Positions 30,856-38,958 of a DNA stretch of 64,000 nt are shown one piece after another. The notes below the pieces were generated by a model. That model was not told the origin of the DNA and ran no database searches. It was given only the letters and a program-made list of their open reading frames with translations. The translations under genes were made by a program, and so were the position numbers. How positions within the stretch are numbered: the stretch's first letter is position 1; the number at the start of each line of letters is the position of its first letter. Origin of the DNA: Yoonia maricola (GTDB lineage: Bacteria; Pseudomonadota; Alphaproteobacteria; Rhodobacterales; Rhodobacteraceae); contig NZ_PGTY01000003.1 of NCBI RefSeq assembly GCF_002797915.1, forward strand, positions 248,001 through 312,000. Reading direction: 5' to 3'.

Positions 30856-31237
30856 GCATTCCCACTTGTAAGGCCACCGCCATGATCCAGGGTGGTGTCC
30901 CTACGGTACCTGATCGATCGGATGGACGCCACGACGCACCAGATATCGTAAGTGCGATATGACGCGCGTGGCTGGTCGCGATGCACGGCAGGTTTGCGAT
31001 CGTCAAAGCGTCACATCATCCGCAGGGGGTCGTGCAGACAACGCCCACCGAAGCTTTCTGCACCTCCAGGATATCTATGAGGCAAATATCCGCTTATCTT
31101 ATGGCGTGGATAAACTGAGGGCAGTGTGTCTCTCACACGCTGCGCCTCAATTGCACCACATTTTGGACATTTTTTGCCCTTTTGTCTTCTGAATAGATAA
31201 CGAAATATTGAACGATTCTAAATTCTGGGGCTTTGTA
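30856..31237. other. Long intergenic region without a convincing gene
   Basis: About 380 bp between gabD and the DUF1800 gene. The open frames here (e.g. 77 codons at 30959-31192) have poor composition and no ribosome binding site. Two small inverted repeats occur: ATATCG-N6-CGATAT at 30943-30960 and GTGTG-N5-CACAC at 31124-31138. The last 60 bp are AT-rich and should hold the promoter of the DUF1800/DUF1501 pair. Confidence 0.5.
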
Positions 31238-33745
31238 ATGGCAAAAATGACATATTTTGTGGCGAGTACTGCGCTTGCCGTTCTCTTAGTTCAACTTGCA
31301 GAACCTGCAAATGCGGATAGCTCCGAAAATGCCGCTGCCGGAGGCACAGAATCGTCCAATGACGTCATTGAGGTGAACAGCGAACAAAGCTTTACCTACA
31401 ACATAGAGCGCGCCGGAAATGTCATGATTGTGGTGGCGCCGCGTGATCCGGTTAACGTTTCAGTAAACGGCACACTTGTCCTTGCACTTACAGATCTCAA
31501 TTCTTCGGCGGGCACGCCGATACAAGCCGTTGTTGATCTAACTGCAGGTGACCACATCATAACTGTCGAATCCGTAAAGCCCGGCACCGATATGACCGAC
31601 GCGGTCTTAGTCGCCTTCGATGGGGGACAACCCGTTGCTTTGGCAGACATCGCATCCACAACCGCAACGGCCGATGTAAACAATCTTTCAGCGAATGTGG
31701 TAGCGGCCGCATCGACAGCGACACGCAGCATTTCCTCTTCAGACCCACTGGTACAAAATTCCTCTGTGGACGGCTTGCAGTCCAGTAGCAGCGCATTGGC
31801 CGCATCTGAAATGAGCGGCAGCAATAACAGGGCCAACGCAAGCACAAGTGTCTTTAATCAGAATGGAGCGGGTGATGATACGACCTCCCGCGACTTCCGA
31901 TCCGCAATTTTGGATGCCATCGCTGAATCTTCGGGGGTTCCGTCATCAGAAACACCCGAGACGCCGACGCAACCTACAACGCCAGGTACCTTTGAAAATC
32001 CGGCGTTCGGCCCTAGCGTTTCAAGCCCTTTGTCTCCGCCAACGGATGTCGCCATCACCCAGGCTATTCAACTGACGTCCGCAGCAACTGACGACGGCCT
32101 GCTGGCATCAACGGGACAAACCCTGTTCGGTGCCGTACAGGACCCGATGACATATGACATTGTCACTGCGACCATCGCACCCTCTGGCCGGACAACCACC
32201 GTCGATGTCGGTGCAATGCGTGGCCAGTTCGCCGTCCGGCTCTTTGCTGAGGACATGACAGAGGCGACAACGGTCACATTGACTGCTTCAAATAGCATGA
32301 ACGATGCTGTGACGCCTGCGACCATCAGCTATAATTTTGATGTGGCCTACCCAAATGATGGTATCGCAATGGCGCTGTCGCGCCTTACCTATGGCGCAAC
32401 TCCTGACCTTTACGCACGCGTGCGCGCGATCGGGTTTCAGGCCTATGTTGAAGAACAGCTTGCTCTGAGCGGCCTTGATGAGACGGCGCTGAACCGCGTT
32501 TCAGGGCTTGGGCGCGGTAACAGCCGCACCGAGATCATGCGCTCTTACAGAGACAACAACATGGCACGCGCAACGCTTACAACAGCCCAACTGCGCGAGG
32601 TCATGGGGACGTTCTGGTCGAACCATTTCCATGCCAATAACAAAGAAACAAACATCTACCTGCCAAACCTTGACGACCGCGACTTCTTTAGAACCAACGC
32701 ATTCGGCAACTTTGAAGATCTGCTTCTCTATTCCGCACAAAGCCCCTTGATGTCGCAATACCTCGACAATGATGTGAACACGGCCAATAGCCCGAACGAA
32801 AACTACGCACGAGAGATACTTGAGCTGCACACGGTCGGTGTTGACGGTGGCTATGGTGACGATGACGTCATCGCAATGAGCGAGATATTCTCTGGCTGGG
32901 GCTGGGAAAAAGTGACCGATGTCCCAAGTGCTGCTGCTGATACCTATGGTTTCCTGTTCCGGGCGCAAAACCATGTTCAGGGTGACAAAGACCTGCCTTT
33001 CCTTAACACGACGATCAGTGGACGCAGCGGTGCGGATGGGGTTCTTGAAGGCGAAGAGGTGATCTCGATCCTTTCGACCGATGACCGGACGAAGGCGTTT
33101 GTGTGCGGCAAGATTGTCCAGAAATTCGTGGCCGATGATCCACCAGCCTATTTCATCGAAGTTTGTACGACAGCCTGGACCCAAAGCAATGGGTCATCCA
33201 GAGAGATGCTCCGCGCCATCCTGCTTGATCCAGCCTATATCACAACGGTTGAGTACCAGCGGGCAATGGCAAAAACCCCGATCGAATTCGCGGCATCTTA
33301 CTTGCGTGCACTTGGCGCTCAGCCCAGCGGTAATGCAGCAAACCACATCCGCAATATCTCAACAGTTGTCGCCAATGCCGGATGGGACCCGTATTATTTT
33401 GCAGCGCCGACGGGTATATCTGAAGTGTCATCCGCATGGCTGAACTCGGCTCCTATGATTACGCTCTATAACGGTCTGGCCGACATTCCGGGTGATCCGA
33501 GCCGTTACGGCCACGACCTGCCCGGCGACATTGCCGATGCGGGTCTTGAGACCGCCGAAGAGGTTGCAGCTTACCTGCTTACGGTTGGTACTGCTGACCG
33601 GTTCTATCGGGATGAATACGAAGCCATGGTCAATGTCCTGAAAGGCGAAGACGGCATCTTCGAACCCATGCTCTCTGATGAGACCGATGCGATCAACCGG
33701 GCTGCAACGCTCTTGCTCGTTTCACCCAGCTTTCTCGCTCAGTAA
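31238..33745 (+). CDS. Exported DUF1800-domain protein with large N-terminal extension
   Basis: A protein of 835 residues starting at ATG 31238, 7 nt after GGGG. A signal peptide (FVASTALAVLLVQLAEPANA) precedes a beta-rich domain (about residues 45-140), a Ser/Thr/Pro-rich linker (about 155-270), another beta domain, and the DUF1800 domain from about residue 377 (MALSRLTYGATPDLYARV) to the end. DUF1800 marks in view include FWSNHFHANNKE, NYAREILELHTVGVDGGY and DVIAMSEIFSGWGW. DUF1800 is found next to DUF1501 in many bacteria and its function is not established. It lies 22 bp before the DUF1501 gene. Confidence 0.88.
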   Translation: MAKMTYFVASTALAVLLVQLAEPANADSSENAAAGGTESSNDVIEVNSEQSFTYNIERAGNVMIVVAPRDPVNVSVNGTLVLALTDLNSSAGTPIQAVVDLTAGDHIITVESVKPGTDMTDAVLVAFDGGQPVALADIASTTATADVNNLSANVVAAASTATRSISSSDPLVQNSSVDGLQSSSSALAASEMSGSNNRANASTSVFNQNGAGDDTTSRDFRSAILDAIAESSGVPSSETPETPTQPTTPGTFENPAFGPSVSSPLSPPTDVAITQAIQLTSAATDDGLLASTGQTLFGAVQDPMTYDIVTATIAPSGRTTTVDVGAMRGQFAVRLFAEDMTEATTVTLTASNSMNDAVTPATISYNFDVAYPNDGIAMALSRLTYGATPDLYARVRAIGFQAYVEEQLALSGLDETALNRVSGLGRGNSRTEIMRSYRDNNMARATLTTAQLREVMGTFWSNHFHANNKETNIYLPNLDDRDFFRTNAFGNFEDLLLYSAQSPLMSQYLDNDVNTANSPNENYAREILELHTVGVDGGYGDDDVIAMSEIFSGWGWEKVTDVPSAAADTYGFLFRAQNHVQGDKDLPFLNTTISGRSGADGVLEGEEVISILSTDDRTKAFVCGKIVQKFVADDPPAYFIEVCTTAWTQSNGSSREMLRAILLDPAYITTVEYQRAMAKTPIEFAASYLRALGAQPSGNAANHIRNISTVVANAGWDPYYFAAPTGISEVSSAWLNSAPMITLYNGLADIPGDPSRYGHDLPGDIADAGLETAEEVAAYLLTVGTADRFYRDEYEAMVNVLKGEDGIFEPMLSDETDAINRAATLLLVSPSFLAQ

Positions 33746-33767
33746 GCGGTACAGACAAAGGATAATA

Positions 33768-35075
33768 ATGATGAGAACACGTCGCGAATTCCTCAAATCA
33801 GCCGCTGCTGCCGCAACCCTTGCGGGCGGTGCAGGCGCACCCCGCTTTTCTTTTGCGCAAGAAGCAGGCGGCAAAACCTTCGTTAAGGTCTTCATGCGCG
33901 GCGGGGCAGATGGTTTGCATCTGTTTCCCAAGGTCAGCGATATGAACTATTACAATGCACGCGGGACCATCGCGATCGAACCGCCCAATGGCGACAGCGA
34001 GTCCGCGGTGGACCTGGGCGCAGGGCTCGCCCGCGCGATGAACCCCAACCTTGCAGCACTGTCTGAAATCTGGGATTCAGGTCGGATGCTGGTGATGCCC
34101 GCCTGCGGCCTTCCAGCAGGCAACCGGTCGCATTTTGATGCGCAACGCTGGATCGGCAACGGTGCGCGCAGTAACCTGATCGATGGCTATCTCAACCGCT
34201 ACCTGCAGGAAACGGACACAGGTTCAGAAGCGCTGCGCGGTGCTGTTCTGGGCAAAGGGAGCATGTCAACCGAACTGCGGGGCGGCATGACCGTACCGGT
34301 GATCGCCAACGGCACCGGGTTTGATATTCAGACCGATGATTTCTGCTTCGGAAGCGGTTGCGCCGACAACAGGCTCACTGAAATTATGAACGAGATCGCA
34401 GCCACCGAGGACGCGTCTTTCGACTCGATTGCGTCACGTGCGCGGGATGCGCAGCGGGTGACCTTGGCGAATATCGACAGCGTAACGCAAGCTGCGGCAG
34501 GTTATACAACCGATGCGGATGGTCTGGAATACGACGGAAGCCCACTGGGCCGCGGGCTCCAGCTTGTTGCCCAGCTTCTCAAGGCCGAAGTACCGCTTGA
34601 AGTTGCGGCGCTGGATTGGAACATTGGGTGGGACACCCATACCAATCAGACAGCGGGCGGGAGCCGTCCATTTACGGACCAGTCTTTTTCCTATCACAGC
34701 GGCATGACCGCCGGCGCGCGAAACTTTGTCACGTTTTTCCGCGATATGGGTGCGCTGCTAGACAATGTTGTCGTGCTCGTCTGCACCGAATTTGGCCGCA
34801 CGGTACGCCAAAGCGGGACCGGCACCGATCACGGTGATGCGTCGTCGTGGTTCGCCTTTGGTGGCCCAACCCAAGGCGGCATGGCTGATGATGTAGCGAA
34901 CCTGTCAGAGGAAAATCTGAACTCACGTCGGTATCTGCCGGTCATCAACGATTACCGCGATGTTGCAGCAGAAATTATGGTGCGCCATGTCGGCATGCCG
35001 GAAGATCTCATCTCGACGGTCTTCCCCGGTCAGGTCTTCACCGACAACGGTTTCTTTACGCGCCCAACCGGGTGA
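33768..35075 (+). CDS. Tat-exported DUF1501 protein (alkaline-phosphatase-fold relative)
   Basis: A 435-residue protein with a twin-arginine signal (MMRTRREFLKSAAAAATLAGG), so it is exported folded, probably with a bound cofactor or metal. DUF1501 motifs in order are KVFMRGGADGLHLF (about 40), NRSHFDAQ (about 120), NIGWDTHTNQ (about 285) and TEFGRT with GTDHGDA (about 342-360). These Asp/His-rich blocks look like the metal site of the alkaline phosphatase/sulfatase fold. Start ATG 33768 follows AAGGA. It is co-transcribed with the DUF1800 gene; the pair probably acts together. Confidence 0.88.
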   Translation: MMRTRREFLKSAAAAATLAGGAGAPRFSFAQEAGGKTFVKVFMRGGADGLHLFPKVSDMNYYNARGTIAIEPPNGDSESAVDLGAGLARAMNPNLAALSEIWDSGRMLVMPACGLPAGNRSHFDAQRWIGNGARSNLIDGYLNRYLQETDTGSEALRGAVLGKGSMSTELRGGMTVPVIANGTGFDIQTDDFCFGSGCADNRLTEIMNEIAATEDASFDSIASRARDAQRVTLANIDSVTQAAAGYTTDADGLEYDGSPLGRGLQLVAQLLKAEVPLEVAALDWNIGWDTHTNQTAGGSRPFTDQSFSYHSGMTAGARNFVTFFRDMGALLDNVVVLVCTEFGRTVRQSGTGTDHGDASSWFAFGGPTQGGMADDVANLSEENLNSRRYLPVINDYRDVAAEIMVRHVGMPEDLISTVFPGQVFTDNGFFTRPTG

Positions 35076-35381
35076 CGCATGAAAAGCCGGTGCGGACCTA
35101 GCAACAGTAGTGATCACATCGATGGCCTGCTTTCTTCAAAACTTGCAAGATACAGGACCATCTTGCAGATCATGTATTAAATGGCCGCAACAGCAAAGAT
35201 GATGCAAGAACTGAGGCCCGCCAGTTTGCGACCCAGGGTCAGGACCAATTAAATCTGCCACAAATAAGGACATATCAGTGTGATACTTTTGCCGAACAGT
35301 ATCAGAACTACTTTAATTCAGTTGACCATAGCTAAACAGCGTGGAAATCACGCAGGCATCATAAAGGAAGAGGTGTTACAC
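35076..35381. other. Intergenic region upstream of the beta-barrel gene, no gene seen
   Basis: The 306 bp hold no supported ORF. A perfect inverted repeat TGATAC-N12-GTATCA lies at 35281-35304, about 80 bp before the barrel gene start, and could be an operator. The region is AT-rich toward its 3' end, as expected for a promoter. Confidence 0.4.
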
Positions 35382-35900
35382 ATGAATAAGTTGTTTTTTG
35401 TTTCTGCACTCGCGATCTGTGCATCAGCCAATGCGGCTGTCGCTGAAGGGTTTTACGCAGGCGCAACACTTGGTTCAGTCGAACTTGACGTTGATGATGT
35501 AGAAGTCCAGAGCACAAACTTGAACGCTCTGATTGGCTTTGAGGTCAATCAAACATTTGCGGTGGAAAGTGAATTCAGCTTTGCCGTTGTAGAAGACGAA
35601 ATTGACGTTGACGGTGGCACCGTAGATGCAAGCACCAACTATGCTGGTATTTTTGCAAAGGCATCTTTCCCGCTGTCGTCCGAATTCTCTGCGCATGCAC
35701 GCTTGGGTTTTGTGAATGTCACTTTTGAAGCGGATGGCGACGGCGGATCTGCAAGCGCTGATGATTCAGGCGTTGCTATCGGTGCTGGGGCTCAGTACGC
35801 GGTCTCGCCAACTATTGCTATCCGTGGTGATGCAACGTTTGCAGACATTGATGGCGTAGATCTTACAACATTGACCATCGGGACAGTGTTTAGCTTCTAA
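35382..35900 (+). CDS. Small outer-membrane beta-barrel protein
   Basis: A 172-residue exported protein: signal peptide (NKLFFVSALAICASANAAVA) and then alternating hydrophobic strands separated by acidic loops, ending in aromatic Phe (IGTVFSF), the C-terminal signal recognised by the Bam machinery. The first strand GFYAGATLGSVELD resembles OmpA/OmpW-like small barrels. Loops are rich in Asp, Glu and Val (VDDVEVQ, DEIDVDGG). Start ATG 35382 follows GGAAGAGG. It carries its own terminator. Ligand or partner unknown. Confidence 0.85.
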   Translation: MNKLFFVSALAICASANAAVAEGFYAGATLGSVELDVDDVEVQSTNLNALIGFEVNQTFAVESEFSFAVVEDEIDVDGGTVDASTNYAGIFAKASFPLSSEFSAHARLGFVNVTFEADGDGGSASADDSGVAIGAGAQYAVSPTIAIRGDATFADIDGVDLTTLTIGTVFSF

Positions 35901-35966: not shown

Positions 35967-36169
35967 GTGCTGCAATCTCTTGTATGCTCAAGCCGGCACC
36001 ATCCTTCGACAACCAGACATGCGTATAAACCAAATGATCCTACGCAAATTAAGTCGCGGTTATGCGAACAGCGGTATTTAGAAAACGACCGACCAGGCTG
36101 ACCAGACAAATCCAAAAAATTTCAAAGTAATTCCAAGGATTGACCTCTCTCTCGCGTCAAACCACCGTG

Positions 36170-36712
36170 ATGCGCATGATGACAAGCGATGAGGACCTAG
36201 CAACAGCAGCCGCAGCCGGTGACGGCGCGGCCTTTGCCAGCTTGCTTGATCGTCATTATGATAGGCTCTTTGCGTTTTGCTTTCGCATCACCGGATCGCG
36301 TAGCGAGGCCGAAGACCTCACACAGGATATATGTGCCGCATTGCCCGCCAAGCTGGGCAGTTACCAAAGACGGGCGAAAGTCACCACATGGCTGTACCGT
36401 GTCGCCGTCAATGCAGCACACGACAGACGCCGCAAACGCACCAGCTATGCCAAAGCGACAACTGGATGGGGCGATTGGGAAGTAAACCGGAACGCCGCCA
36501 ACGAAGACACTGCTACGAAAATGGACTGGCTGACTGCCGCGATGGGCCAACTCTCTGACGATCTACGCGACACACTGGCCCTTGTGCTTGATGACATGAC
36601 ACATGCACAAGCCGCCGAGGTTCTGGGCGTGTCCGAAGGCACAATCAGCTGGCGTATCTCAGAGGCGAAAAAAGCGCTCCGCACATTCAAGCAAGAAGAG
36701 GACATGGTATGA
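36170..36712 (+). CDS. ECF-type RNA polymerase sigma factor
   Basis: A sigma-70 family protein of 180 residues with region 2 (LLDRHYDRLFAFCFRITGSRSEAEDLTQD, seen in parts near residues 23-50) and region 4 helix-turn-helix (MTHAQAAEVLGVSEGTISWRISEAK near 140-165). It lacks region 1.1 and region 3, as in ECF sigmas. Three in-frame ATGs at 36170-36179 and a TTG at 36140 leave the exact start open. The ATGA overlap with the next gene couples it to a membrane VWA protein instead of a recognisable anti-sigma factor; that protein may be its control partner. Confidence 0.92.
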   Translation: MRMMTSDEDLATAAAAGDGAAFASLLDRHYDRLFAFCFRITGSRSEAEDLTQDICAALPAKLGSYQRRAKVTTWLYRVAVNAAHDRRRKRTSYAKATTGWGDWEVNRNAANEDTATKMDWLTAAMGQLSDDLRDTLALVLDDMTHAQAAEVLGVSEGTISWRISEAKKALRTFKQEEDMV

Positions 36713-38958
36713 CCGACGACCTGAATGACCTCAAAGCGATAATGGATCAGGCAACGCCGAGCCCCGATACGGCCAGGCGGGCTGAAAACATCGCACTGGC
36801 GCAGAAAAACTTTAATGATCTCCAAGGATCGCGTCAGGACGTGCGTCCCACTGCTGTAACCGGGCCAAAGGGCCTTTGGACAGGAGTGAAGACAATGCTG
36901 AACACGACGATGATATTTGCGACATCAAAAGGTGGGCTGACAGCAACAACCGCGCTGGTCGCTTGCGGGTTTTTGGTGCTGACGCCGCAAGGGCAGGATT
37001 TGCTGCGGCCCCCATCGGCACCCCAGATCACGATGACAGAGTTTGACAGCACAACTATGCAGCCACGGCTCGAAAATGGCCCTATGACGGCCGAAGAGTT
37101 GTCACGCAGTGAGATCATTCAAGAGGCACCAAGCGGTGCGGAAGGTCAGATACTACTGGGTCCGCTAGAAACTCCCACGGAAGATCTCGACTTCACAGAT
37201 CGGTCAGACGCAGCGCCCAGGGTATTGCCTCAGCTGAGGGACGACGCAGTTGTTCCGCAGATGCAAGAGGCGGAGATTGTAGAGAGCCTTCCGGAAGTTC
37301 GGTCACGTATGACGGAAAACAACTTATCTGCGCCTTTGGCATCGCCCGCGACCACCGGAACGACTGCTCCTGAGGTGGACGCAGAGCGTGAAACAGTCGT
37401 ACCACCATCAAGTAGCGCCACTTTTGGCCAGCTTTCAAGCGGTGGACTTTATCCAAGTAGCGAACAACAGACGCCTTCCACAGAGTTACAAGAAGCGGAA
37501 ACGATTAGAGTTCCTGGTACCGACGTACTTGACCTGATAGACGATGCGTTAGGGGTTGCAGAGCCTGACACAGAAGCTTTCCCGCAAGCTGACAATAACC
37601 CGCTCAAGATTACGGCAGACGACCCCGTTTCAACCTTCTCCATCGACGTCGATACCGCCGCCTATGCTGTCGTCCGATCATCACTGTCGCGCGGCCAACT
37701 ACCGCCCGCCGCAGCCGTGCGCATAGAAGAGCTGATGAACTACTTCCCCTACGACTATCCGGCACCCGATGCAGGCGAAGCCCCTTTCCGCCCCACGGTC
37801 ACGACATTTCAGACCCCATGGAACGCGGATACGCAATTGGTCCATATCGCCCTACAAGGCCAGATGCCCGAGATTGCAGAGCGGCCACCTTTGAACCTCG
37901 TCTTCCTCATCGACACATCTGGCTCAATGGATGATCCGACCAAACTTCCACTGCTCAAACAATCATTCCGGCTTATGCTGGATCAGTTGCGCCCCGAAGA
38001 TCAGGTGGCCATTGTAGAATATGCAGGCAGCGCAGGTGAGGTGTTGGCGCCGACCAATGCGTCCGAGCGTACAACGATCCTGCAAGCGATCCAGTCGCTT
38101 GGCGCGGGTGGGTCTACCAACGGCCAAGGCGGTTTAGAGCAAGCCTATAGCGTTGCGGAAACAATGCGCGCTGATGGTGAAGTGAACCGTGTGATCCTTG
38201 CGACTGACGGTGATTTCAATGTCGGGCTGAATAATCCTGATGCGCTCAAGGATTTCATCGCGGATAAACGCGACACAGGGACCTATCTCAGCGTTCTTGG
38301 TTTCGGGCACGGTAATCTGGACGATGCAACGATGCAGGCCTTGGCCCAAAACGGAAATGGAACAGCTGCCTACATTGACACATTGTCAGAGGCACAGAAG
38401 GTGCTGGTTGACCAGCTTTCCGGCGCGCTTTTCCCGATTGCAGGTGACGTGAAGGTGCAGGTTGAGTTTAACCCCGCCCAAGTCGCTGAATACCGGTTGA
38501 TCGGCTATGAAACCCGCGCGCTGAACCGCGAAGATTTCAACAATGATACCGTAGATGCGGGTGAATTGGGCGCCGGGCATGCGGTGACCGCAATCTACGA
38601 AGTGACCCCGGTTGGCAGCCCCGCACAATTGAGCGATCCGCTGCGCTATGCGCCAAACACCGTTGCTGCGACCTCGGATGAGTTGGGCTTTCTGAAGCTA
38701 CGCTACAAAGAACCCGGCGACGCTGTCAGCCAGTTGATCGAAACGCCCATCACCGGCAGCAGCATCCCCGGAACTGAGGCGAACTTTGCAGCAGCCATTG
38801 CCGGGTTCGGTCAATTGCTGCGCGATGAGGCTTACTTGGGTGACTGGGGTTACGATCAGGCGATCGCCTTGGCTAATGCGAACAGGGGCGATGATGCCTT
38901 TGGCTATCGCACCGAGGCTGTGCAATTGATGCGGCTGGCGCAAAGCCTATCACGTTAA
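36709..38958 (+). CDS. Single-pass membrane VWA-domain protein (YfbK-like), probable sigma-factor partner
   Basis: A 749-residue protein. Residues 1-75 are polar and cytoplasmic, 76-93 form one membrane helix (LTATTALVACGFLVL), and the rest would be periplasmic: a low-complexity linker (about 100-280), the YfbK N-terminal region (STFSIDVDTAAYAVV near 305), a VWA domain whose MIDAS motif DTSGS is near 401-405 with T and D ligands downstream (GGSTNGQGG; LATDGDFNVG), and the DUF3520-like C-terminus. VWA/MIDAS domains bind divalent metal and protein ligands. The 4-nt overlap with the ECF gene and the topology suit an anti-sigma or sensor role; this is inferred. Confidence 0.88.
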   Translation: MTDDLNDLKAIMDQATPSPDTARRAENIALAQKNFNDLQGSRQDVRPTAVTGPKGLWTGVKTMLNTTMIFATSKGGLTATTALVACGFLVLTPQGQDLLRPPSAPQITMTEFDSTTMQPRLENGPMTAEELSRSEIIQEAPSGAEGQILLGPLETPTEDLDFTDRSDAAPRVLPQLRDDAVVPQMQEAEIVESLPEVRSRMTENNLSAPLASPATTGTTAPEVDAERETVVPPSSSATFGQLSSGGLYPSSEQQTPSTELQEAETIRVPGTDVLDLIDDALGVAEPDTEAFPQADNNPLKITADDPVSTFSIDVDTAAYAVVRSSLSRGQLPPAAAVRIEELMNYFPYDYPAPDAGEAPFRPTVTTFQTPWNADTQLVHIALQGQMPEIAERPPLNLVFLIDTSGSMDDPTKLPLLKQSFRLMLDQLRPEDQVAIVEYAGSAGEVLAPTNASERTTILQAIQSLGAGGSTNGQGGLEQAYSVAETMRADGEVNRVILATDGDFNVGLNNPDALKDFIADKRDTGTYLSVLGFGHGNLDDATMQALAQNGNGTAAYIDTLSEAQKVLVDQLSGALFPIAGDVKVQVEFNPAQVAEYRLIGYETRALNREDFNNDTVDAGELGAGHAVTAIYEVTPVGSPAQLSDPLRYAPNTVAATSDELGFLKLRYKEPGDAVSQLIETPITGSSIPGTEANFAAAIAGFGQLLRDEAYLGDWGYDQAIALANANRGDDAFGYRTEAVQLMRLAQSLSR

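Follow-up and report, generated by a model that had tools for sequence, protein, structure and literature searches.

A candidate anti-sigma/sensor gene of the VWA/YfbK type in Yoonia maricola that carries a putative promoter for its partner ECF sigma factor and a predicted nested start

Introduction

What restrains an extracytoplasmic function (ECF) sigma factor whose downstream neighbor encodes a membrane protein with a von Willebrand factor A (VWA) domain? The question is raised by a locus of Yoonia maricola (Rhodobacteraceae) in a 64,000-nucleotide stretch of contig NZ_PGTY01000003.1 (positions 248,001 to 312,000), referred to here as the window. In this locus, the sigma open reading frame (ORF) stops at 36712 and is overlapped, as ATGA, by the VWA ORF at 36709-38958, so that both ORFs and their overlap are where an earlier note on this DNA had placed them. 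That note took the VWA protein for an anti-sigma factor and sensor in one chain. Comparison with other genomes partly supports this as the best reading of the protein: the two genes are obligately paired, the N-terminus was seen only with the sigma factor and the presumed parts exist as split genes elsewhere, although a docking model did not discriminate and the note had missed two promoter motifs and a nested start. The new element is the apparent presence, inside the coding sequence of the putative inhibitor, of a promoter motif for the same sigma factor (P2, a copy of the motif P1 before the sigma gene) together with an internal start. We consider it probable that the locus encodes an autoregulated ECF sigma/anti-sigma pair, the anti-sigma factor forming one chain with a periplasmic VWA (YfbK) sensor whose part of the gene contains a nested start of its own.

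Pairing of the sigma and VWA genes

Among 198 genomes of the family, PF12450 was found in 89 and an orthologue of the sigma factor also in 89 (E 2.7e-36 or better, the next ECF sigma factors appearing at 7.7e-20). Both genes were present in 88 genomes and neither in 108, with one exception each way, both at contig ends. In one exception (G159) the VWA gene was truncated at the contig end, and in the other (G028, locus L309, G028:C52) the sigma gene at the contig end adjoined and partly overlapped a VWA-matching fragment, an arrangement that may represent a deletion or an assembly fault. A synteny survey, proposed in the earlier note as a check, bears out the association across the family, with co-occurrence in 88 of 198 genomes and the sigma gene directly upstream on the same strand at 86 of the 89 VWA loci; the remaining three (G021, G069 and G159) were broken by contig ends. 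The window genome contains one PF12450 protein.

Similar results were obtained with named records found by the sigma factor alone, the closest of which, by sigma identity, were Yoonia, Loktanella and uncultured Rhodobacteraceae. A long VWA gene was next door in 78 of the best 80 of 569 such loci, with the N-terminal domain in all 78 and a gene overlap of -4 in 71 of these; the two outliers were a record that stops 475 bases past the sigma gene (L219) and a truncated sigma match (L232). The adjacency of the two genes is not due to chance, and the pair is obligate in the family. Metagenome-assembled genomes labeled Acidobacteria or Thermoanaerobaculia (L275, L282 and L285) also had the pair, with sigma factors 63-66% identical to that of the window, by transfer or in mis-binned contigs.

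The cytoplasmic N-terminus of the VWA protein was likewise associated with the sigma factor. Thus, in loci with readable flanks, the long VWA form was seen only beside this sigma factor, and many YfbK proteins elsewhere were shorter, had a signal or lipoprotein start and no sigma gene upstream. Absence of the N-terminal segment from short forms outside the class was judged by reading N-termini, a simple phmmer test having also missed the segment in distant long forms. PF12450 was found in 46 of 385 genomes of the class, and a profile search of the same genomes with the N-terminus gave 16 matches, 13 of them to these proteins and 3 borderline (E 0.002-0.008). In a tree of 82 VWA cores, the 24 long forms were all within one clade (98) together with three further rows, of which L182 and L195 lacked both the N-terminus and the sigma factor and L183, a contig-edge locus, was counted neither way. 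In a tree of ECF sigma factors (80 candidates entered, 75 sequences in the final tree), the 25 partners of long forms from inside and outside the class formed one clade (99 by the Shimodaira-Hasegawa-like approximate likelihood ratio test), the sole other row of which was a second copy of a partner gene.

Tandem pairs of YfbK-type VWA genes, with no sigma gene in the stretch examined, were noted at L084, L123 and L182. At another locus (L191, G585:C7:37000-47000) a short YfbK VWA gene was followed by what appeared by eye to be a sensor kinase and a response regulator, and the family may also associate with a two-component system, besides sigma factors.

Evidence bearing on a possible anti-sigma role

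Features of a membrane anti-sigma factor noted in the window protein were a single membrane helix, a short cytoplasmic part and a gene coupled to that of the sigma factor, with topology assigned from the positive residues before the helix. The zinc-binding class I anti-sigma factors carry the motif HxxxCxxC in the cytoplasmic part, and the protein does not belong to this class, there being no Cys or His in residues 1-75. A comparison of the N-terminus with Pfam up to E 10 recognized no known anti-sigma domain, and a profile of it found no match among PDB sequences (best E 0.15). The earlier statement that the window has no recognized anti-sigma gene held for the four neighboring genes compared with Pfam, to which this check was limited. 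An unrelated anti-sigma gene conserved with the sigma factor in relatives, which according to the earlier note would count against its proposal, was not seen, as no third gene family was present at over 20 of the 40 wide window-type loci compared.

Outside the class, a comparable set of parts was found as separate genes. In genomes of the same phylum but another class (L167-L175, L189, L190 and L196 among them), probably Gammaproteobacteria, the gene order was short lipoprotein-like VWA, ECF sigma, further gene. The further gene came immediately after the sigma gene in 12 of 12 wide VWA-then-sigma loci outside the class, and its product had a membrane helix by hydropathy in 11 of the 12, preceded by a short N-terminus in 10 and located later in L172; the L196 protein had none at the hydropathy threshold used. 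Locus L185 was excluded from the N-terminal set on account of a misassigned start. When three of the 12 proteins, cut to 130 residues, were compared with Pfam and NCBIfam, one weak match to an NCBIfam 'anti-sigma factor' was obtained (17 bits, cut-off 100). The sigma factors of this split type formed a separate clade (94), whose union with the window-type clade was not rejected (approximately unbiased test, p 0.166, for a group chosen after the tree was seen).

Small proteins (111-132 residues) whose start is similar also followed 10 of the 12 next-closest ECF sigma factors of the family (L296-L299 and L302-L307; L300 and L301, where the next genes looked different, were excluded), and 5 of these 10 had a membrane helix by hydropathy. 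They may be minimal anti-sigma factors in which the periplasmic part is small or absent. In profile comparisons, the cytoplasmic part of the window type scored 19.0 against these small proteins (best of 40 column-shuffled controls, 12.5) and 16.1 against the third genes outside the class (best of 40 such controls, 14.3). Because similar parts exist as separate genes outside the class, the window VWA protein looks like a fusion of a candidate anti-sigma factor with a VWA protein, which is the best reading of these comparisons.

AlphaFold modeling of a read-through chain of sigma factor and N-terminus (from L229) gave a predicted template modeling score of 0.70, with the two helices at a block predicted local distance difference test (pLDDT) of 86-91. 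The sigma factor of this model superposed over both domains on anti-sigma-bound SigW/RsiW (Z 17.1), EcfG/NepR (16.5) and CnrH/CnrY (15.6), with a root mean square deviation (rmsd) of 2.7-2.8 over 152-157 residues, and on polymerase-bound sigma factors only at 21-28 Å.

Several of our results limit the case for an anti-sigma role. The N-terminal helices were equally ordered with the sigma factor (block pLDDT 75, 86, 91 and 90) and without it (77, 85, 92 and 79), so that AlphaFold leaves docking of the sigma factor undemonstrated. The compact model sigma also fits SigG1, solved without an anti-sigma factor (7qh5, Z 15.1, 3.4 Å), and for the RseA, MucA and RskA complexes the alignment was confined to one domain or had a high rmsd. 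Correlation of tree distances between sigma factor and N-terminus was no better than between sigma factor and some VWA segments, and column covariation, although enriched, had its top pairs in variable, clade-marking columns. The two clades of VWA-linked sigma factors were not sisters in the tree, and the profile similarities were weak, with an hhalign probability of about 5% for the third genes outside the class and 14% for the proteins beside the next-closest sigma factors.

The indifference of the modeled helices to the sigma factor, whose binding is a prediction, and the lack of a recognizable anti-sigma domain are also what would be expected if the VWA protein were a co-expressed target, the sigma factor reading P1 and P2 with its activity set in some other way and the helices serving only to tether or stabilize the protein. 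We regard this alternative as unlikely, though the most serious of those considered, since the helices were seen only with the sigma factor and the two clade members mentioned above lack both, outside the class the VWA-linked sigma factors are followed by a protein with a short N-terminus, and 10 of the 12 next-closest ones by its small form, and the 40 wide loci hold no other conserved neighbor.

Promoter motifs and a predicted nested start

A CCAAGGA...CGTC block was evident about 10 nucleotides ahead of the sigma start codon in each of the 34 regions inspected, out of a set of 79. In 170 distinct operons, P1 (CCAAGGA-N15-CGTC) was exact in 150 and had at most one mismatch in 161, and P2, within the VWA coding sequence, was exact in 117, always in one reading phase. 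With at most one mismatch in 11 positions, P2 was present in 159 of the 170 operons compared with 1 of 845 control windows, and elsewhere in these loci the exact motif occurred twice in 2.02 million strand-bases. When the set was reduced to 75 operons with sigma factors less than 70% alike, P2 was exact in 57 and had at most one mismatch in 73. Both motifs were exact in outgroups L083, L087, L089, L093, L179, L180, L186, L187, L197, L198, L063 and L147; P2 alone was exact in L120, L121, L181 and L002, P1 alone in L098 and neither in L090, L184 and L188. In L063, which has a longer N-terminus, P2 was shifted along with the membrane helix. P1 and P2 have the character of ECF promoters, namely a conserved two-part motif of fixed spacing at the sigma factor's own gene. 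From this sharing of the motif, both are most likely read by this sigma factor, which is probably autoregulated through P1. It counts against these assignments that P1 was not exact in 20 of the 170 operons and P2 not exact in 53, and that the operons are related rather than independent. The sigma translation start, corrected from the earlier note, is probably GTG 36167 or ATG 36170, and the sigma messenger RNA (mRNA) may, as read from the sequence, be leaderless.

Downstream of P2, the arrangement ACAGGAGT-N6-ATG was found in many members. The distance from CGTC to the first in-frame ATG was 45-53 nucleotides in 77 of the 117 operons with exact P2, and a Met preceded the membrane helix, by a median of 8 residues, in 166 of the 170 operons. 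Shine-Dalgarno matches of at least 5 nucleotides occurred before the Met of codons 51-85 in 118 of 163 operons and before 74 of 1939 later Met codons, the former being the best Met of each operon and the latter counted singly. Ribosome sites before the internal Met were also present in outgroups inside and outside the class. The sigma factor most likely reads P2 as an internal promoter, yielding a VWA isoform without the anti-sigma helices, and this short product would belong to the usual, secreted type of YfbK protein. A reading of the helix as that of a lipoprotein only (LVAC, residues 83-86) was rejected since the Cys is not general, a lipobox-like motif being present in 41 of 163 short forms. 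Between P2 and the internal ribosome site, at 36860-36879, is a short inverted repeat (CCAAAGG/CCTTTGG) that is also present in some relatives.

Met63 could be an ordinary residue before the membrane helix, and the short form is a prediction; P2 might accordingly be a real sigma-dependent promoter that serves dosage or the uptake of free sigma factor, with the protein from ATG63 not made or irrelevant. This appears improbable, given that the ribosome site is far above background, recurs in outgroups and stands on a predicted P2 mRNA unable to encode the full-length protein.

Codon usage indicated what is conserved at P2. In 130 genes with QG.....R, the codons were CAA in 126 (background 0.35), GGA in 124 (0.09) and CGT in 129 (0.14), and where QE replaced QG the DNA was still CCAAGAA..CGTC in most such variants. 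Because synonymous codons are fixed against the background and the DNA is mostly kept in QE variants, the conserved QGSxxxxR is, on codon evidence, a DNA signal and not a protein motif, and much of the conservation between residues 38 and 63 would also be that of a DNA signal, which corrects the earlier note. Conservation of the peptide holds in the class and beyond it, but a role as a protein motif (a sigma contact, for example) whose likeness to P1 is coincidental is very improbable in view of these codons and the occurrence of CGTC exactly 15 nucleotides on; the codon counts contradict it as a reading of P2.

Putative targets of the sigma factor

In the window genome, CCAAGGA-N15-CGTC occurred 9 times and a reversed control 3 times. 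The copies were P1, P2, one located 42 nucleotides before a gene of the MuiA family, whose protein meets TIGR02231, and six inside open frames. Among the 30 of 48 MuiA-bearing family genomes that could be scored, namely those with loci, the exact motif preceded the MuiA gene in 7 of the 15 that carry the pair and in 0 of the 15 that lack it (one-sided Fisher 0.003). The mean motif count per genome was 4.0 in the 89 sigma-bearing genomes and 2.1 in the 109 others. The motif is common by chance (2.1 copies per pair-less genome), P1 and P2 make up most of the excess, and no large regulon was visible by genome-wide motif count. The absence of a visible regulon, the location of six of nine copies in open frames and the lack of the motif before MuiA in the other pair-bearing genomes detract from a wider role for the motif.

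Published results bear on the pair and on MuiA. In Mesorhizobium huakuii bacteroids, MCHK_2864 (yfbK) was up 13.9-fold and MCHK_2865 (sigma-70) 15.6-fold (Table 3 of PMC3973600); their names and adjacent tags suggest that they are this pair, a comparable pair being present in the same-class genome L186. In Pseudomonas aeruginosa, a different ECF sigma factor, SbrI, drives muiA in envelope stress, according to an excerpt of PMC10418997.

Proposed mechanism and relation to known systems

In the resting cell, the full-length VWA protein would keep the sigma factor at the membrane through its two cytoplasmic helices, and the sigma factor would be released when the VWA part responds to an envelope signal. 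The released sigma factor would then read the CCAAGGA-N15-CGTC promoters. Transcription from P1 would give more sigma factor and more full-length inhibitor, and mRNA from P2, with its ribosome site and ATG63, a secreted or anchored VWA protein without anti-sigma helices; in some genomes, including that of the window, the freed sigma factor would also turn on the MuiA-family envelope gene. In this scheme the gene has two layers, in that the anti-sigma/sensor frame would also contain, conserved as DNA, a promoter for the sigma factor under its inhibition, followed by a ribosome site and start codon, so that freed sigma factor gives rise to sensors that cannot hold it and that compete for the signal or act as effectors. 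We favor this proposal, with somewhat less confidence than the sigma/anti-sigma pair itself. The DNA of the putative internal promoter is conserved within the class and in outgroups beyond it. The arrangement could plausibly have arisen by in-frame fusion of an upstream anti-sigma gene to a gene for a secreted VWA protein, whose sigma-dependent promoter was retained inside the new frame.

Short helical cytoplasmic anti-sigma elements are known from CnrH/CnrY, SigW/RsiW and EcfG/NepR, and the modeled sigma factor of the pair adopts the compact form of these complexes. CnrY and RsiW are not known to carry a VWA domain and NepR is soluble, whereas the window helices, with their predicted sigma binding, are fused to a VWA/YfbK periplasmic core. 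The three-domain core (PF12450, VWA and PF12034) is shared with the YfbK family, for example Escherichia coli YfbK, and E. coli, used as the single control genome, was positive in the PF12450 search. Outside the family, most of the YfbK proteins encountered were short, either secreted or lipoprotein-like, and lacked an upstream sigma gene; the window protein differs in its cytoplasmic extension and sigma partner.

The Streptomyces SigR/RsrA system with its sigma-R' isoform is likewise an autoregulated ECF system with two isoforms from two promoters, as excerpted from PMC4921905. There the sigma factor gains an N-terminal extension from an upstream promoter, whereas in the window system an internal promoter would yield an inhibitor/sensor shortened at the N-terminus. 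SbrI/SbrR of P. aeruginosa resembles the present system in the activation of a MuiA gene by an ECF sigma factor in envelope stress; its inhibitor is given as SbrR in PMC10418997. Neither a VWA-linked anti-sigma factor nor such a feedback layout was found described in the open-licence literature searched, and 'von Willebrand' and 'VWA' did not occur in the main text of PMC7406223, PMC8103513 and PMC6180224.

With these results, the YfbK-type VWA protein, of an unexplained envelope family, gains a probable role as sensor of an ECF sigma system, and for the sigma factor a promoter and initial targets can now be predicted. A functional nested promoter would mean a feedback layout in which the sigma factor directs synthesis of the sensor portion of its inhibitor, free of the portion that inhibits. 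The findings at P2 also caution that strong conservation of a peptide can reflect a promoter hidden in its codons.

Organization of the locus

Features of the locus are listed in Table 1. The sigma protein has the sigma2 and sigma4 regions alone in about 180 residues, as expected of an ECF factor, with Sigma70_r2, Sigma70_r4_2 (Pfam) and TIGR02937 all above cut-off. Membership of the VWA protein in the YfbK family is indicated by the order of its Pfam domains, vWF_A N-domain, VWA and YfbK_C. The consensus of a metal ion-dependent adhesion site (MIDAS) is DxSxS followed by T and D further on, and D402, S404, S406, T470 and D500 were invariant in an alignment of 61 sequences including that of the window; the DTSGS metal motif of the earlier note is upheld, with metal binding predicted. 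AlphaFold modeling of the VWA protein with 60 homologues gave helices at residues 4-15, 21-39 and 55-70 and a membrane helix at 74-91, confirming the single helix that the note had put at 76-93 and shifting its limits. A disordered linker (about 104-283) and an ordered, confident VWA/YfbK core followed, and the closest PDB fold matches of the modeled protein were ArnA/ArnB and other VWA proteins.

Table 1. Positions in the window of the sigma and VWA genes and of the motifs and domains assigned to them
Feature	Position	Strand	Basis or remark
P1, ECF-type promoter motif CCAAGGA-N15-CGTC directly before sigma gene	36133..36158	+	Exact match
ECF sigma factor (sigma2 + sigma4)	36170..36712	+	GTG 36167 is alternative start
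Full-length membrane VWA/YfbK protein, 749 residues	36709..38958	+	ATGA translational coupling to sigma gene
Two predicted cytoplasmic helices (residues 4-15, 21-39), candidate sigma-binding part	36718..36825	+	AlphaFold; weak profile similarity to small proteins adjoining other ECF sigma factors
P2, internal promoter motif CCAAGGA-N15-CGTC in codons 38-47 (peptide QGSRQDVR)	36822..36847	+	
Ribosome-binding site AGGAG (36882-36886) and internal ATG 36895 (Met63), predicted short-isoform start	36882..36897	+	Sequence and conservation
Single membrane helix (residues 74-91), signal anchor of predicted short isoform	36928..36981	+	Lipobox-like LVAC in Yoonia maricola
vWF_A N-terminal domain PF12450	37567..37845	+	Pfam
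VWA domain	37894..38397	+	MIDAS motif DTSGS at 37912-37926; Pfam and alignment
YfbK_C domain PF12034	38425..38949	+	Pfam

Upstream of the pair, a DUF1800 gene followed by a DUF1501 gene was noted at 31208-35075, and a gene for an outer-membrane beta-barrel protein (PF13505) at 35280-35900, directly upstream of the sigma gene.

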